From positions 1 through 49,367 of the forward strand of contig DUQR01000052.1 in the NCBI GenBank assembly GCA_012837715.1: a DNA stretch of 49,367 bases. The letters are read 5' to 3'. This document shows, one piece after another, positions 4,766-40,836 of the stretch. The stretch's first letter is position 1. Each line of letters opens with the position of its first letter. The position numbers and the translations under genes are program-made. The stretch is from Bacillota bacterium. Lineage in GTDB: Bacteria > Bacillota > UBA4882 > UBA10575. Below the pieces are notes generated by a model. That model did not search any database. It saw only the letters and a program-made list of their open reading frames with translations, and had not been told where the DNA came from.

Positions 4766-6103
4766 ATGAATAAAAAATTAGACGAAAAAATATATCACAT
4801 ATGGCACCCGTTCACTAATATGAATGTTTTTTATGAGGAACCGCTAATCTTTACTGAGGGACATGGTTCTTTGCTTAAGGATGTCAATAACAAAACATAT
4901 ATTAATGCGCTATCCGGTTTATGGAACACCGCTTTTGGTTTAGGTGACCAGGAAGTTATCGATGCTATTACTGCCCAACTGAAAAACATTTCGTATGCAA
5001 GTTTGTTTCGTATGGGACACGCCATAGCTCAACGCTATGCCGAAAAATTGTTTCAGGTGTTACCCGGCAACCTAAGTAAGGTCTTTTTTACCAGCAATGG
5101 TTCTGAAGCAGTCGAGACAATGATTAAAGCAACAAGGCAATTCTACAAGCTACAAGGAAAACACGGAAAAATGAATATCATTTGTCTGCGGCGAGCATAT
5201 CATGGGGTCTCTTATGGGGCCTTAAGCGCTTCCGGGTTTACGGAGGATCAGGAAATGTACGCCCAGTTATTACCCGGTTTTATCCATATCGAACCTCCAT
5301 ATTGTTATCGCTGTCCGTATCATAGAAAAGTGGATGATTGCCAAACTGAATGCGCCCGTGAAATAGAAAATGTTATACAAAAAGTAGGGATTGATAAAAT
5401 AGCTGCTTTTATGATGGAACCTATTTTGGGTTTTGGTGGATTTATTGTGCCTCCTGATAAATTTCATGAGGAACTAATAAAGATATTGAGGAAATATGAT
5501 ATTTTGTTATTAATGGATGAAGTGACTACTGGGTTTGGCAGAACAGGCAAATTCTTTGCTTGTGAACACTGGGGATTGTCTCCTGATATGATGGCACTGG
5601 GTAAAGCGATAAGCGGCGGATATATCCCGCTTGGAGCGACTGTATTTAGTGAAGAAATTTATCATACTTTTTTGCGGGCAGGAGTTACTGGACGATTTGC
5701 TCATGGTTCGACTTATAGTGGGAATCCGGCAGCATGCGCAGCAGGAGAAAAAATGCTTGAAATTTATCAAAGAGCAGATGTCTCTGCAAAAGCGTGAGAA
5801 CTGGAAAGGGAATTGCAAACGGTTTTTAACAATTTTCGAAGTCTCAGCCAAGTTGGTGATATTAGAGGTAAAGACGCTATGCTTGCGTTAGAATTTGTAA
5901 CAGATCCGGTTACACGGAATCCTTTGGACGTTGCTCATATGTATAATTTGATTAAGAAGATATACCAATGGGGTGTTTTGGTCCATTTGAGTGGACACAA
6001 CATTCTTATTATTCCACCGGTGAATTTACCTAGAGATTATGTGAAAAAATCACATAATGCAATTGCTTTCAGTATTATGGAGGTACTAAACACACAGGTT
6101 TAA
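4766..6103 (+). pseudogene. class III PLP-dependent aminotransferase interrupted by in-frame TGA
   Basis: The whole 446-codon frame reads as one class III aminotransferase, except for a TGA at 5795-5797 in the same frame. Visible features are HPFTNM and GSEAVETMIKATRQF near the N-terminus, DEVTTGFGRTGKFF, the PLP-lysine segment MALGKAISGGYIPLG, and GSTYSGNPAACAA. After the stop the frame continues with ELERELQ and GDIRGKDAMLALEF to TAA at 6101-6103. No base was gained or lost. One C-to-T change in a CGA codon would explain it. The truncated 343-residue product lacks the C-terminal small domain and is probably inactive unless TGA is read through. A Cys-rich insert (YCYRCPY...DDCQTECA) is conserved in some transaminases. 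Codon use is AT-rich. The next gene encodes an ACP fusion, suggesting an acyl-ACP-derived substrate. Confidence 0.8.
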
Positions 6104-35424: not shown

Positions 35425-36303
35425 CTAAACCTCGACCTGGAGAAAGAGGCGGAGGAAGTAACCGATGATAAAACTTAGACCGGCCACGGCCACGCTAAGG
35501 ACCGTCATCTCGAGAAAACGGGACCAGAAAGGCCACTCCTTGGCGACGGCAAGGTAAAAATTGAAGGCTAAAATAATGATCACACCGATGGTAAGGGTAA
35601 GGACTAAACTTAGGAAATAATTGGCGGTAAGTAAATAAGGCAGGATCAGGGCGATGACGGTGAACACGTAAGCGACCCAAGTATAGAGGGCCGACTTGAA
35701 AGCTAAGGCTGGCTCTTCTCCCCCGGCTTTGGTGGAGAGATATTCGGAAGCGCCCATGGAAAAAGAGGCGGCGATCCCGGTAATTAAGCCGGACAAAGCG
35801 GTCAAGCGGGTGTTTTGCAGGGCAAAAGTTAGTCCGGCCAACGTTCCGGTCAGCTCGACCAAGGCATCGTTGAGACCGAGGACGATGGAACTGACATAGT
35901 TTAGCGTATCTTCTTCGAGGAGGTTTAAAAGTTCGTGCTCATGCTGATCCTCATCGGCAATGATCTGGGCTAGCTCCGGGATGTCACGGACATATTCCTC
36001 GTAAGTTTTCTTGGCTTGCGCCTCGCCTTTTTCCATCAGCTTCAGACCGAAGGTGAGTCCAAAGATCCGGGCTAACGAGGTAAAGAGAAATATTTGCCAA
36101 CGGTTGGGTTGAACCTCCCTTTGGGTGTATTTCCGGTAGATATTATAGTGACAGAGTTCTTCGGCGGCAATCTCGGATAAGATCTGCTGATTATGGGGAT
36201 TGGCCACCAACTTAGCTAGGCGTTTGTAGATGTGGTATTCGGTCAGTTCGTTTTTTTGAAAGACGATGAGCTTGGCAAGGAGCTCCTTCTGTAATGCAGG
36301 CAT
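35425..36303 (-). CDS. ferritin-like/VIT-family metal exporter (MbfA-like)
   Basis: 292 residues. I used the ATG with AAGGGAGGA upstream; the longer frame runs into the promoter. Residues 1-135 form a rubrerythrin/ferritin-like four-helix part with metal-ligand patterns ELTEYHIY, EIAAEELCHYNIY and DEDQHEHELLN. Residues ~140-292 are a VIT1/CCC1 transporter (LGLNDALVELTGTLAGLTFAL; GIAASFSMGASEYLSTKAG) with five helices. Fusions of this kind (MbfA) export iron or manganese. Divergent from a Zn/Mn importer, and sharing a promoter motif with it, it should act in metal balance. Confidence 0.88.
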   Translation of the reverse strand: MPALQKELLAKLIVFQKNELTEYHIYKRLAKLVANPHNQQILSEIAAEELCHYNIYRKYTQREVQPNRWQIFLFTSLARIFGLTFGLKLMEKGEAQAKKTYEEYVRDIPELAQIIADEDQHEHELLNLLEEDTLNYVSSIVLGLNDALVELTGTLAGLTFALQNTRLTALSGLITGIAASFSMGASEYLSTKAGGEEPALAFKSALYTWVAYVFTVIALILPYLLTANYFLSLVLTLTIGVIIILAFNFYLAVAKEWPFWSRFLEMTVLSVAVAGLSFIIGYFLRLFLQVEV

Positions 36304-36478: not shown

Positions 36479-36534
36479 TTGACAATTAATTCCTCGGGGA
36501 TAATAATAGGTATGGGTATTACATAGTAATACAT
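36479..36534 (+). promoter_or_regulatory. promoter and palindromic operator of the metal-import operon
   Basis: TTGACA at 36479-36484 is followed, after about 16-17 bases, by an AT-rich -10 (TAATAAT near 36501-36507). Immediately downstream GTATTAC-ATA-GTAATAC (36516-36532) is a perfect palindrome where transcription would start. It contains ATTACATAGTAATACAT, nearly identical to the motif in the divergent promoter. A repressor bound here would block the importer. Confidence 0.6.
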
Positions 36535-36703: not shown

Positions 36704-36976
36704 ATGAATGGGAAAAGGAAACAAGAAGTGATCACCTTTAAAGTTGATGAAGCGTTAAGTGCAGCCTTGGCAGGAATCCCGAACCGCTCGGAGTTTATCC
36801 GGACGGCGATTTTAACTGCTTTAAAAGCTGCTTGTCCCTTATGCCGCGGGACGGGCATACTAACCCCGGAACAACAAAAACATTGGCAAGAGTTTACCCA
36901 GCACCATACGATTGCCAAATGTGAAGAATGCCATTCCTTTCATCTGGTTTGTACAGCGGCGCATCATGAGGATTAA
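36704..36976 (+). CDS. ribbon-helix-helix protein with Cys/His metal site; putative metal-responsive repressor
   Basis: 90 residues. Residues 7-41 (EVITFKVDEALSAALAGIPN, then RSEFIRTAILTALK) are a CopG/MetJ-type ribbon-helix-helix. Residues 44-88 carry CPLC (C44, C47), CEECHSFHLVC (C73, C76, H77, H80, C83) and HH at 87-88, a plausible zinc ribbon. The gene is first in the operon with the Zn/Mn importer, and a palindrome sits in its promoter. The simplest reading is an autoregulated zinc or manganese sensor that is not of the Fur, MntR or NikR architecture. Function is inferred; no characterised homologue comes to mind. Confidence 0.65.
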   Translation: MNGKRKQEVITFKVDEALSAALAGIPNRSEFIRTAILTALKAACPLCRGTGILTPEQQKHWQEFTQHHTIAKCEECHSFHLVCTAAHHED

Positions 36977-37000
36977 TAAATCCTGGGGAGGAATTTTTTG

Positions 37001-37966
37001 ATGAAAAGACGGGTAAAGCAGTCCATGTGGGGCGTGATCCCTTTTGTGCTCTGCCTGTTACTGGCGATGGTAATCGGGGTCGGGACCAAAGCTAGCTCTT
37101 CCGGGGAGATAAAGCAACTGGAGAAGATCAAAGTCTTTGTCAGTATTTTGCCCCAGAAATATTTCGTGGAACGGATTGGCGGCGACCAGGTTACAGTGGC
37201 GGTGATGGTTGGCCCCGGGCAAAATCCAGCCACCTACGAACCGTTACCTCAACAAATGAGCGCGCTCGCCACAACGCAACTTTATTTCCGAATTGGTGTT
37301 CCCTTTGAAACGGCATGGATTGATCGATTGTCAGAGCTCAATCGGGATCTGGTCGTCATTGATACCCGAGAGGGTATCCCTTTACGCAAGATGGAATCCT
37401 CCCACTACCATAGGGAAGAAGAGTCAAGAGCTGATGCTTTCCAGGCGGAGCCTGGAGAAGGTTTAAAGGACCCCCATATTTGGCTTGATCCGGTTTACGT
37501 TAAAAGACAAGCGGCAACGATCTGTCGGGCTCTAGCGGCCCTTGATCCTGCCCACCGCGGGTTATACGAGGCGAATCTTTTTGCCTTCCAGAAGGACCTG
37601 GATGAGCTGGACCAGGAGTTGTCGACGGCTTTCCGGAGTTTAGCAGTGAAAAAATTGATGGTTTTCCATCCGGCTTGGGGCTACTTAACCGACCGTTACG
37701 GCTTGGAACAGATCCCCCTGGAAGTGGAAGGGAAAGAACCGGGCCCCCGCGAGCTGGCCCATGCGATCGACTATGCTAAAGCCGCCGGGATCCGGGTGAT
37801 CTTTATCCAGAGTCAGTTTAATGCGGCGGCAGCGGAGGCGGTAGCCCGCGCAGTGGGCGGACGGGTGGTAACTATCGATCCGTTGGCTGAGGATTATCTG
37901 ACGAATATGCGCCGGATCGCCCAGACGATAAAAAGGAGTTATGGCGCTGATGAAGACCGTAATTGA
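37001..37966 (+). CDS. znuA: Zn/Mn ABC importer substrate-binding protein (ZnuA/TroA family)
   Basis: 321 residues with an N-terminal signal or anchor (WGVIPFVLCLLLAMVIGVGTKA). The fold is KVFVSILPQKYFVERIGGDQ...VGPGQNPATYEPLPQQM. Metal-ligand positions include DPHIWLDP and VFHPAWGYLTDRYGL, plus IDPLAEDY near the end. The first His of the usual PHxYEP motif is Ala77 here (NPATYEP). Some TroA relatives share this, so metal choice is uncertain. A short acidic/His loop (SSHYHREEE, around 125-135) is where ZnuA proteins have a longer His-rich loop. GGGGAGGA precedes the start. No lipobox. Confidence 0.85.
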   Translation: MKRRVKQSMWGVIPFVLCLLLAMVIGVGTKASSSGEIKQLEKIKVFVSILPQKYFVERIGGDQVTVAVMVGPGQNPATYEPLPQQMSALATTQLYFRIGVPFETAWIDRLSELNRDLVVIDTREGIPLRKMESSHYHREEESRADAFQAEPGEGLKDPHIWLDPVYVKRQAATICRALAALDPAHRGLYEANLFAFQKDLDELDQELSTAFRSLAVKKLMVFHPAWGYLTDRYGLEQIPLEVEGKEPGPRELAHAIDYAKAAGIRVIFIQSQFNAAAAEAVARAVGGRVVTIDPLAEDYLTNMRRIAQTIKRSYGADEDRN

Positions 37967-38675
37967 ACTACATAATGTTAGTTTTGCCTATGAGCAACGA
38001 TTTATCCTCGAAGGGATCGATCTTAAGGTTGCCGCCGGTGATTTTTTTGCCATTATCGGCCCAAACGGCGGGGGGAAGACCACGCTCCTCCGTTTGCTTC
38101 TGGGAAATTTAGAACCGGTGCGCGGGGAGATCAAAGTTTTTAATCGTCCGCCCCGGAAAGCCCGTCGGTTCATTGGCTATGTCCCGCAACAGGGTAACCT
38201 GGACCGGGATTTTCCTGTTTCCGCTTTGGAAGTCGTGTTAATGGGACGTCTCGCGCCCAACCGTCTTTTTCCCCGTTACCAAAAGAATGACTATGAAGCG
38301 GCCTATACGGCGATGCGGGCCGTCGGCGTTGAAGGGTTGGCCGCAACCCGCTTTGGTGACTTATCGGGCGGACAAAAACAACGGACTTTGATTGCCCGGG
38401 CTTTAGTGGCCAAGCCCCAACTTTTGATTCTGGACGAACCGACCTCCAGCGTTGATTATGGGGTCGCGCAGGAAATATACCAATTACTTGCGCGCTTGAA
38501 TCAAGAAGTCACCATTGTTCTGGTCTCCCACGATTTGGGGTATGTTGCTTCCCATCTCCAAAAGGTGGCTTACTTGAACCGGCGCTTGTCCTTTTACCAT
38601 CCGGAGCTGGAAAGTCAGAATAGTATCGCCGCTTGGTACGGGGAGAAAAAAAGTTTATGGAGTGGTGGGCGCTAA
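37941..38675 (+). CDS. znuC: Zn/Mn ABC importer ATPase (ZnuC-like)
   Basis: 244 residues. Walker A is GPNGGGKTT, Q-loop YVPQQGN, signature LSGGQKQRTLIARAL, Walker B LLILDEP, then TSSVDYG and the H-loop VSHDLGYV. This is the metal-importer group. It overlaps the binding-protein gene by 26 bases. AAGGAG lies just before; the ATG at 37950 is an alternative start with better spacing. The 3' end overlaps the permease gene. Confidence 0.9.
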   Translation: MALMKTVIELHNVSFAYEQRFILEGIDLKVAAGDFFAIIGPNGGGKTTLLRLLLGNLEPVRGEIKVFNRPPRKARRFIGYVPQQGNLDRDFPVSALEVVLMGRLAPNRLFPRYQKNDYEAAYTAMRAVGVEGLAATRFGDLSGGQKQRTLIARALVAKPQLLILDEPTSSVDYGVAQEIYQLLARLNQEVTIVLVSHDLGYVASHLQKVAYLNRRLSFYHPELESQNSIAAWYGEKKSLWSGGR

Positions 38676-39556
38676 TGGGAGAATTTTTGCGTGCGCTTTG
38701 GCAATATCCCTTTCTCCAAAATGCGGTTTTGGCCGGGGTACTCTCCAGTTTGGCCTGTGGGGTAACCGGTGTTTATGTTGTTGTGAAGCGAATCACCTTT
38801 ATTAGCGGCGGGATTGCCCATGCGGTTTTGGGCGGGATCGGTGTTGCCTATTATTTAGGAAAGGACCCGTTGAGCGGGGCGGTGATTGCGGCGTTACTCT
38901 CCGCCTTTTTGCTGGGCATGATTAATTTAACCGCCCGTCAACACGAAGACACGATCATTGGCGCTTTGTGGGCGGTGGGGATGGCTACCGGGATTATTTT
39001 TATCACTTTGACCCCTGGTTACAGTGTGGATTTGATGAGTTTTCTCTTTGGAAATATTCTAATGGTTACCGCACCGGTTCTTTGGGTGCTTTTTAGTTTG
39101 GATCTGATTATCCTCTTGTTGGTGGTGGTTTTTTACCGCCAGTTTCTTTTGGTTTGTTATGATGAAGAATATGCCCGGCTGCGGGGTTTACCCGTTCGCT
39201 TCCTTTACATTCTCCTTTTGGCTTTGATTGCCTTAACCGTAGTGGTCTTGATTAAAGTGGTCGGGTTAATTATGGTCATTGCCTTGTTAACGTTGCCGGC
39301 GGCGGTGGCTAGCCTCTTTACCTATGATTTAAGCCGGATGATGGTCTCCGCCACGGGTTTAGGTTTAATCTTCATCTGGGTAGGGCTGGTCATCTCCTAT
39401 AATCTGAACCTTCCGTCCGGGGCAACGATTGTCATCATTGCCGGGCTTTGCTACTTGGGCGCATTAGGCCTCCGCAAACTCACCCACCAGGTCGGACGGC
39501 GGCAGAAAGCGGCGGTTCTGACGGCGAAGGTAACAGCTGACGAGGAGGAATCATGA
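38657..39556 (+). CDS. znuB: Zn/Mn ABC importer permease (ZnuB-like)
   Basis: 299 residues from the ATG at 38657 (GGGGAGAA about 10 bases upstream), with about eight helices. The ABC-3 family marks are LAGVLSSLACGVTGVYVVVKRITFISGGIAHAVLGGIG, the SFLFGNIL segment and VVGLIMVIALLTLPAAVASL. It forms the channel with the ATPase. Its stop (TGA 39554-39556) overlaps the next ATG, so the ammonia-lyase is translated in coupling. Confidence 0.9.
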   Translation: MEWWALMGEFLRALWQYPFLQNAVLAGVLSSLACGVTGVYVVVKRITFISGGIAHAVLGGIGVAYYLGKDPLSGAVIAALLSAFLLGMINLTARQHEDTIIGALWAVGMATGIIFITLTPGYSVDLMSFLFGNILMVTAPVLWVLFSLDLIILLLVVVFYRQFLLVCYDEEYARLRGLPVRFLYILLLALIALTVVVLIKVVGLIMVIALLTLPAAVASLFTYDLSRMMVSATGLGLIFIWVGLVISYNLNLPSGATIVIIAGLCYLGALGLRKLTHQVGRRQKAAVLTAKVTADEEES

Positions 39557-40836
39557 TGAAGATTGTTAAGCTTATTTGCGCACCGATCCGAAGCGGCTTT
39601 TTCTTCGATGACCAACAGGCGATTAAAGCTGGAGCGGAACCGGATGGTTTTACCTACCGTGGCGCCCCCCGGACGAAAGGTTTTTCCCGGTTGCGCCAAG
39701 CCGGTGAAGGGGTGTCCGTGCTCCTCCAATTGGAGGACGGGTCCCATGCCTATGGGGATTGTGTGGCAGTGCAATACTCGGGGGTTGATGGCCGGGATGG
39801 GTTGTTCTTAGCCGAAGAGGCCATCTCCGTACTTAACCGGGTGGTCCGGCCTCAGCTCGAGGGGAGAACAATCACTACCTTCCGGGCTTTGGCGGAGGAA
39901 GTCGATGGCCTGGTGGATCCGGAGACCGGCCGTCCGCTCCATACCGCCATCCGCTATGGCTTGACTCAAGCCTTGCTTGACGCGGTTGCCCACACCCGGA
40001 AAAAACTGATGGTTGAAGTGATCGCCGAAGAGTATGGGCTTGAGCCATTGACCGAACGGGTGCCGATTTTTGCCCAAAGTGGAGACGAAAGGTATCTTAA
40101 TGCCGATAAGATGATCCTTAAAGAAGTTGACGCTTTGCCCCACGGTCTATTTAACCATGTCGAGACGAAAGTGGGGCGGCAGGGGGAGAAACTCCTAGCC
40201 TATGTGGAATGGTTAAAACAACGGATTGCGGCGTTAAAACCCCGGGCCGACTACCGGCCGGTGATTCATTTGGATCTTTACGGAACCGTGGGGCTAGCTT
40301 TTCATGAGGACCTGGTGGCGATCACCGCCTATCTTGTCCGTTTGGAACAGGCGGCAGCGCCGTACCGTCTCCGTTTGGAAGACCCGGTGGTGCTTAAGGA
40401 CAAGCCTTCCCAGATTAAGCTGATGGGTAAACTGAACCAAAGGCTGGCTGCTGCGGGCAGCCAAGTCCAGTTGGTGGCTGATGAGTGGTGTAACAACCTA
40501 GATGATATTAAAGAATTTGTCTTTGCCAGGGCGGCGGCGATGATTCAGGTGAAAACGCCCGATCTAGGGGGGCTCAACAATACGATTGAAGCGGTGCTGT
40601 TTTGTAAAGAACACGGAATCGCCCCTTACCTCGGGGGTAGTTGTAACGAAACCGACCGTTCCGCCCGGATCTGCGCCCACGTCGCTTTGGCGACCGGACC
40701 GGCGTTGATGTTGGCCAAACCAGGGATGGGGGTCGATGAAGGGTATATGATTATTTTTAATGAGATGAGCCGACTTTTAGCGATCCGGAAAGCGCCGGAA
40801 AGAGAAAGAAAAGTGGGTCAAAGTTGTTTCGGTTAA
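39556..40836 (+). CDS. mal: methylaspartate ammonia-lyase
   Basis: 426 residues of the enolase superfamily, close to the known ~413. The N-terminus has SGFFFDDQQAIKAGAEPDGFTYRG. The barrel carries the metal ligands HLDLYG, RLEDPVV and LVADEWCN and the base Lys in MIQVKTPDLGG. It converts threo-3-methylaspartate to mesaconate plus ammonia in the glutamate mutase pathway. No glutamate mutase gene is nearby, unlike in glutamate fermenters. Its start overlaps the znuB stop, and GAGGAGG lies 7 bases upstream. Why it sits in a metal-import operon is unclear; the enzyme uses Mg2+ and K+. Another amine lyase specificity is possible. Confidence 0.9.
   Translation: MKIVKLICAPIRSGFFFDDQQAIKAGAEPDGFTYRGAPRTKGFSRLRQAGEGVSVLLQLEDGSHAYGDCVAVQYSGVDGRDGLFLAEEAISVLNRVVRPQLEGRTITTFRALAEEVDGLVDPETGRPLHTAIRYGLTQALLDAVAHTRKKLMVEVIAEEYGLEPLTERVPIFAQSGDERYLNADKMILKEVDALPHGLFNHVETKVGRQGEKLLAYVEWLKQRIAALKPRADYRPVIHLDLYGTVGLAFHEDLVAITAYLVRLEQAAAPYRLRLEDPVVLKDKPSQIKLMGKLNQRLAAAGSQVQLVADEWCNNLDDIKEFVFARAAAMIQVKTPDLGGLNNTIEAVLFCKEHGIAPYLGGSCNETDRSARICAHVALATGPALMLAKPGMGVDEGYMIIFNEMSRLLAIRKAPERERKVGQSCFG

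Follow-up and report, generated by a model that had tools for sequence, protein, structure and literature searches.

A ribbon-helix-helix protein with a Cys/His domain as a probable metal-responsive repressor of zinc uptake operons

A 90-residue protein encoded at the head of a znu operon in a Bacillota bacterium quite probably represses zinc uptake in a metal-responsive, autoregulatory manner, acting as an analogue of Zur built on a ribbon-helix-helix (RHH) scaffold. Its gene lies in the window analysed here, the whole stretch of 49,367 nucleotides that makes up positions 1 to 49,367 of contig DUQR01000052.1, among the following features:

36479..36484, + strand: -35 element TTGACA (promoter scan, 11/12 matches with an N17 spacer; in relatives TTGACA recurs at fixed distances from the operator)
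36502..36507, + strand: -10 element AATAAT (promoter scan)
36516..36532, + strand: putative operator GTATTACATAGTAATAC, i.e. GTATTAC-ATA-GTAATAC, just 3' of the -10 element, hence covering the predicted transcription start, and conserved in relatives
36704..36976, + strand: RHH/Cys-His regulator, 90 residues (open reading frame with ATG start, 62-sequence family alignment, AF2 model)
36725..36829, + strand: RHH DNA-binding domain, residues 8-42 (model, structural match to the NikR RHH domain, invariant residues)
36833..36952, + strand: putative Cys/His metal-binding domain, residues 44-83 (conservation counts, weak similarity to the CxxCxGxG zinc motif of anti-TRAP and DnaJ)
36998..37966, + strand: znuA, periplasmic zinc-binding protein (ATG probably at 37001; PF01297, 235.7 bits; motif FHPAWGYL)
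37941..38675, + strand: znuC, ATPase (PF00005; best NCBIfam match AztA, below cut-off)
38633..39556, + strand: znuB, permease (PF00950, 254.5 bits)

Gene order, an operator kept across phyla, its overlap with the promoter and the conservation of the putative ligands can all be read from sequence comparison, which strongly supports a repressor role at znu operons. What was found resembles what is expected of a Zur-type regulator, in that the gene appears to encode a repressor that controls both itself and a zinc importer through a cognate operator, and we infer zinc to be the co-repressor. The first-pass annotation had proposed a distinct type of metal-sensing repressor, a suggestion that the linkage, the Cys conservation and the profile scans described below support.

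The regulator had been predicted to stand first in its operon, and it does indeed precede znuA-znuC-znuB in the window. Linkage was scored with profiles built from 14 loci, and 60 of the 62 loci of the family had enough downstream sequence to be testable, the other two reaching a contig edge and being left outside the count. Rather than being scattered without metal genes, homologues have same-strand znu genes directly beside them in 55 of these 60 loci, with the regulator first in 53 and last in two, and it is this znu linkage, instead of one to nickel uptake as in NikR, that characterizes the family. The possibility that a generic RHH protein, similar to CopG or to an antitoxin, happens to stand beside znu can draw on the abundance of RHH proteins and on a Pfam RHH_1 score below cut-off; it is nevertheless highly improbable, being already contradicted by the linkage across at least six phyla, by the cross-phylum operator and by the invariant ligands, while no partner toxin is found. 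It is of note that in the window the znuB end is overlapped by 4 bases by a methylaspartate ammonia-lyase gene (39553-40836, + strand), which also follows znuB in locus L001, with 82% identity.

The five loci without adjoining znu genes fall into two groups. In two from Spirochaetota (L096, L097), both znu genes and the operator are absent from the vicinity, which speaks against the proposed role. The remaining three, from Planctomycetota (L098, L099, L100), keep the operator, and their downstream gene encodes a shared membrane protein of 206-235 residues, which is a candidate for a new family of zinc transporters. This protein is rich in His and Asp (L098:3352-3960, - strand; L099 from about 8623, + strand; L100:2892-3536, - strand), and gave no match above the Pfam threshold, none in the PDB and, for the one member scanned, none in NCBIfam. 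A further 19 genomes of the phylum contain more remote homologues, and the operator was not found near the ones examined. Distant Planctomycetota relatives of the regulator itself are located beside ZIP zinc transporters (L101, L106; PF02535 above 100 bits) or beside MerC-family proteins (L104, L105, L107-L109); three of the latter were scanned, and all three exceeded the PF03203 cut-off. Two members of this distant RHH/CxxC branch, L108 and L109, have a faint form of the operator upstream.

The palindromic operator noticed in the window, GTATTACATAGTAATAC, turned out to be kept across phyla far beyond chance. Its consensus is 17 bp long, GTAWTAC-N3-GTAWTAC, and with up to 2 mismatches it is present upstream of the regulator in 58 of 62 loci, 31 of them perfect, where shuffled sequences lead one to expect 0.3. 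In an unsupervised count over the 250 bp upstream, GTAATAC/GTATTAC was the top 7-mer, occurring in 56/62 regions (1.2 expected), and the highest count reached by any 7-mer in the shuffles was 16. Four upstream regions have no site, but two of these belong to the operons in which the regulator comes last, where znuA has the operator at its start instead (L111 at 3927, L112 at 9398). In 26 loci TTGAC(A) precedes the operator by 9 or 11 bp, which places the operator between the -35 and -10 elements; in the genus of the window the distance from TTGACA is 34-39 bp, which puts the operator over the predicted transcription start. Both placements, as read from sequence, would fit a repressor. Within the window's own genome (G000), the only perfect copy is the one at 36516-36532. 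One-mismatch copies in this genome and in G002, G004 and G006 lay inside coding genes where inspected, and one in G003 lay between unrelated genes; all were taken as chance, which leaves a single operator in the window's genome.

The regulator itself was compared to Pfam and NCBIfam, and the earlier assertion that it is unlike Zur, MntR, NikR or AdcR was upheld by these scans, which gave no match to Fur/Zur, DtxR/MntR, NikR or MarR/AdcR models. Specifically, Pfam detected no Fur/Zur winged-helix domain (PF01475), no MarR/AdcR or DtxR/MntR winged-helix profile was matched at E values up to 1 in either collection, and the absence of a NikR model match in both indicates that the C-terminal ACT-like nickel-binding domain of NikR is missing from the 90 residues. 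Matches that did appear were all below threshold: RHH_1 at 15.7 bits (cut-off 20.5; a distant relative clears it with 21.1 bits), DnaJ_CXXCXGXG at 17.9 bits (cut-off 32.7) and Anti-TRAP at 15.4 bits (cut-off 32), while NCBIfam returned a sub-threshold RHH match alone. In addition, the C-terminal half of the regulator weakly matches an anti-TRAP chain (3lcz; 20.5 bits, E 0.0029).

Relatives of this protein form a family of 62 non-redundant sequences from Bacillota, Spirochaetota, Planctomycetota, Zixibacteria, Lentisphaerae and Deltaproteobacteria. A scan of genome contigs had yielded 14 relatives (Bacillota, Planctomycetaceae/Pirellulales, Spirochaetota, Zixibacteria, Lentisphaerae and Deltaproteobacteria), and whole-genome searches extended the set, with the regulator present in 12 of 61 relatives. 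Among 398 genomes of the window's phylum there were nine true matches, a weak tenth to a long DnaJ-like frame not being counted; the phyla of genomes G419, G415 and G417 gave, respectively, 20 true matches in 297 genomes, 13 in 198, and eight close plus seven distant matches in 246. L036 and L067 (E 2e-4), in which only the zinc-motif part of frames of 393 and 471 residues was matched, were dropped as DnaJ-like, and relatives on plasmids were sought with none found. One planctomycete genome, G1087, carries four paralogues (including L102, L103 and L115), some with shortened Cys/His domains, and three of the four adjoin separate znu operons.

Conservation within this family allows the putative ligands to be listed as C44, C47, H60, H68, C73, C76 and C83. 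The cluster CPLC...CEEC...C noted previously is real, and its cysteines, far from varying between relatives, are maintained: C44, C47, C73 and C83, as well as H68, are invariant in 62/62 sequences, with C76 present in 61 and H60 in 60. The C-terminal HH pair (87-88), which had been assigned to the cluster, is not conserved, and H60 and H68 belong to it instead; H80 (39/62) and H77 (36/62) are partly kept. In the RHH half, K13, L18, S29, F31, I32, R33 and A35 are invariant, and the second-helix motif NRSEFIR (S-x-F-I-R type) is conserved.

An AF2 model of the monomer reached a pLDDT of 84.4 with 62 sequences (55.9 with 22), and displays helices at 16-22 and 28-41 (RHH), a further helix at 55-64 and a hairpin formed by 68-72 and 79-83. 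A Foldseek search against the PDB found nothing significant at first and, at a second look, RHH proteins only, with no match for the Cys/His half; of the four matches reported, two were NikR entries and the others were the ParDE1 complex and Reg576, a regulator. The E. coli NikR RHH domain came out best, with 33% identity and 1.9 A over 36 residues. The model and this match agree with the CopG-like character that had been attributed to the DNA-binding half, which is RHH-like, and the RHH strand would require a dimer partner. Half-site centres in the operator are 10 bp apart, or one helical turn, in agreement with an RHH-type dimer that inserts an antiparallel beta-ribbon into the major groove. 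Residue 68 stands opposite residue 83 in the register of the predicted hairpin, so that C44, C47, C73 and C76 could form a Cys4 site, with H60, H68 and C83 forming a second one.

These elements suggest a mechanism in which RHH dimers would place their beta-ribbons into the major groove at the GTAWTAC half-sites, and the bound regulator, by covering the promoter, would block RNA polymerase. C44, C47, C73 and C76 probably hold a structural zinc, whereas H60, H68 and C83, which come close to one another at the distal end of the hairpin in the model, probably constitute the sensing site. Zinc at this second site would fix the orientation of the dimer, leading to cooperative binding of the two half-sites, and the metal would hence favour the DNA-binding form; the znu operon would be open when zinc is scarce, and would close once import has refilled the cell. 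An alternative, which we regard as unlikely, retains the autoregulatory repression of znu but considers the Cys/His domain to be a structural zinc site or a redox (thiol) switch that responds to an oxidant or to another signal. The CxxCxGxG...CxxC arrangement does recall DnaJ and anti-TRAP, whose zinc domains are structural, conservation alone cannot tell sensing from structure, and the Cys4 site could be purely structural. However, H60 and H68 are conserved like the cysteines and would be superfluous for such a site. The metal itself is also indicated by the almost exclusive association with zinc importers, which are of various types, and by the exchange between this regulator and a Fur-family one at the same operon (see below).

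The identity of that metal is suggested by the transporters. In all 48 co-located ZnuA proteins that cover the site, the third metal ligand is a His (located within FHPAWGYL in the window), and it is this that favours zinc over manganese; Mn-type binding proteins such as PsaA carry a Glu at this position. Together with the ZIP and MerC neighbours of distant relatives, the third-ligand His makes zinc the likeliest signal. The metal carried by the importer in the window is less certain, since its ZnuA displays NPATYEP where most relatives have the first canonical His. Furthermore, a divergent gene for a ferritin-like/VIT (MbfA-type) membrane protein (35425-36303, - strand) adjoins the regulator throughout the family to which the window's genome belongs, which leaves room for iron or manganese. 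A repressor that senses Mn(II) or Fe(II), with an ABC importer that moves manganese or a mixture, would profit from this conserved neighbour and from the fact that the best NCBIfam match of ZnuA is a Deinococcus manganese-transport model, albeit below cut-off. We judge it to be quite improbable, in that a Cys-rich site fits zinc and not manganese, the third ligand is not the Mn-type Glu, ZIP transporters adjoin distant relatives, and the region upstream of the VIT gene has no copy of the operator, a Fur/PerR-like palindrome seen there being unconserved.

The proposal of zinc-responsive repression by the small regulator can also be considered in light of genomes that lack it. Genome G010, from the same family as that of the window, carries a znuA-znuC-znuB operon orthologous to the one in the window (52, 55 and 64% identity), but the gene at its head encodes a FUR-family regulator (PF01475, 60 bits) in place of the small protein, and the locus holds no copy of the GTAWTAC operator. 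The promoter of this operon (L161, around 5731-5950) includes a perfect palindrome, AAACGCAAcaaatTTGCGTTT, which is probably the operator of the FUR-family head gene. In G016, from the same order, a FUR-family gene is likewise present just upstream of znuA; NCBIfam assigned no subtype to the FUR proteins of either genome. In three genomes of a sister genus (G009, G014, G015), both ZnuA and the small regulator are absent. The genome of the window itself has one FUR-family gene, which resembles iron Fur (184.6 bits, cut-off 220) more than Zur (59.8), and this leaves the small regulator as the only visible candidate for the role of Zur.

To our knowledge, zinc-uptake repressors belong either to the Fur family (Zur) or to the MarR family (AdcR), and NikR is the sole well-studied RHH metal sensor. 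NikR is likewise the RHH protein that reviews use as the example. The regulator shares with NikR the RHH domain, mixed His/Cys ligands and the proposed metal-dependent repression of an importer operon; in contrast to NikR, it carries a 40-residue Cys/His domain in place of the ACT-like C-terminal domain, it is linked to zinc and not to nickel transport, and its operator consists of two half-sites 10 bp apart, whereas that of NikR is GTATGA-N16-TCATAC. With Zur it would share its task, namely to head znu operons and to regulate its own gene along with them, and FUR-family genes hold this position in sister genomes, but fold and operator are unrelated. AdcR (MarR family) and MntR (DtxR family) also repress zinc or manganese ABC importers, and are winged-helix proteins, unlike the regulator. 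The C-terminal half resembles anti-TRAP/RtpA and the central domain of DnaJ in a stretch of the form CPxCxGxG...LTxxQ...F...H; those are structural zinc domains of RNA-regulating or chaperone proteins that have no RHH domain, and the resemblance, a weak one, could have arisen by convergence. Among open-access papers, where absence carries little weight, no RHH protein described as a zinc regulator of znu was encountered, and the CopG protein found in a paper on zinc in Paracoccus proved to be no more than an entry in a table. The protein is proposed to be a metal-sensing repressor with a new domain combination, neither NikR nor Zur, and is best read as a second type of RHH metal sensor after NikR.

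A wider interpretation, to which we give slightly less than an even chance, is that of an undescribed family of zinc sensors, combining an RHH and a Cys/His domain, that spans phyla as a second evolutionary solution to the task of Zur; it would have traded places with Fur-family regulators at one operon and have branched to control ZnuABC, ZIP, MerC-like proteins and the unnamed family of multi-helix membrane proteins, the latter being a new zinc importer. Should the proposed function hold true, a 90-residue RHH zinc sensor present in several phyla would add a scaffold to those employed for metal sensing, would explain the control of zinc import in many genomes without Zur, and would offer a compact system for studies of metal allostery. 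The operator could also serve as a simple tag in the search for zinc transporters not yet recognized, having already led to one family of uncharacterised membrane proteins.
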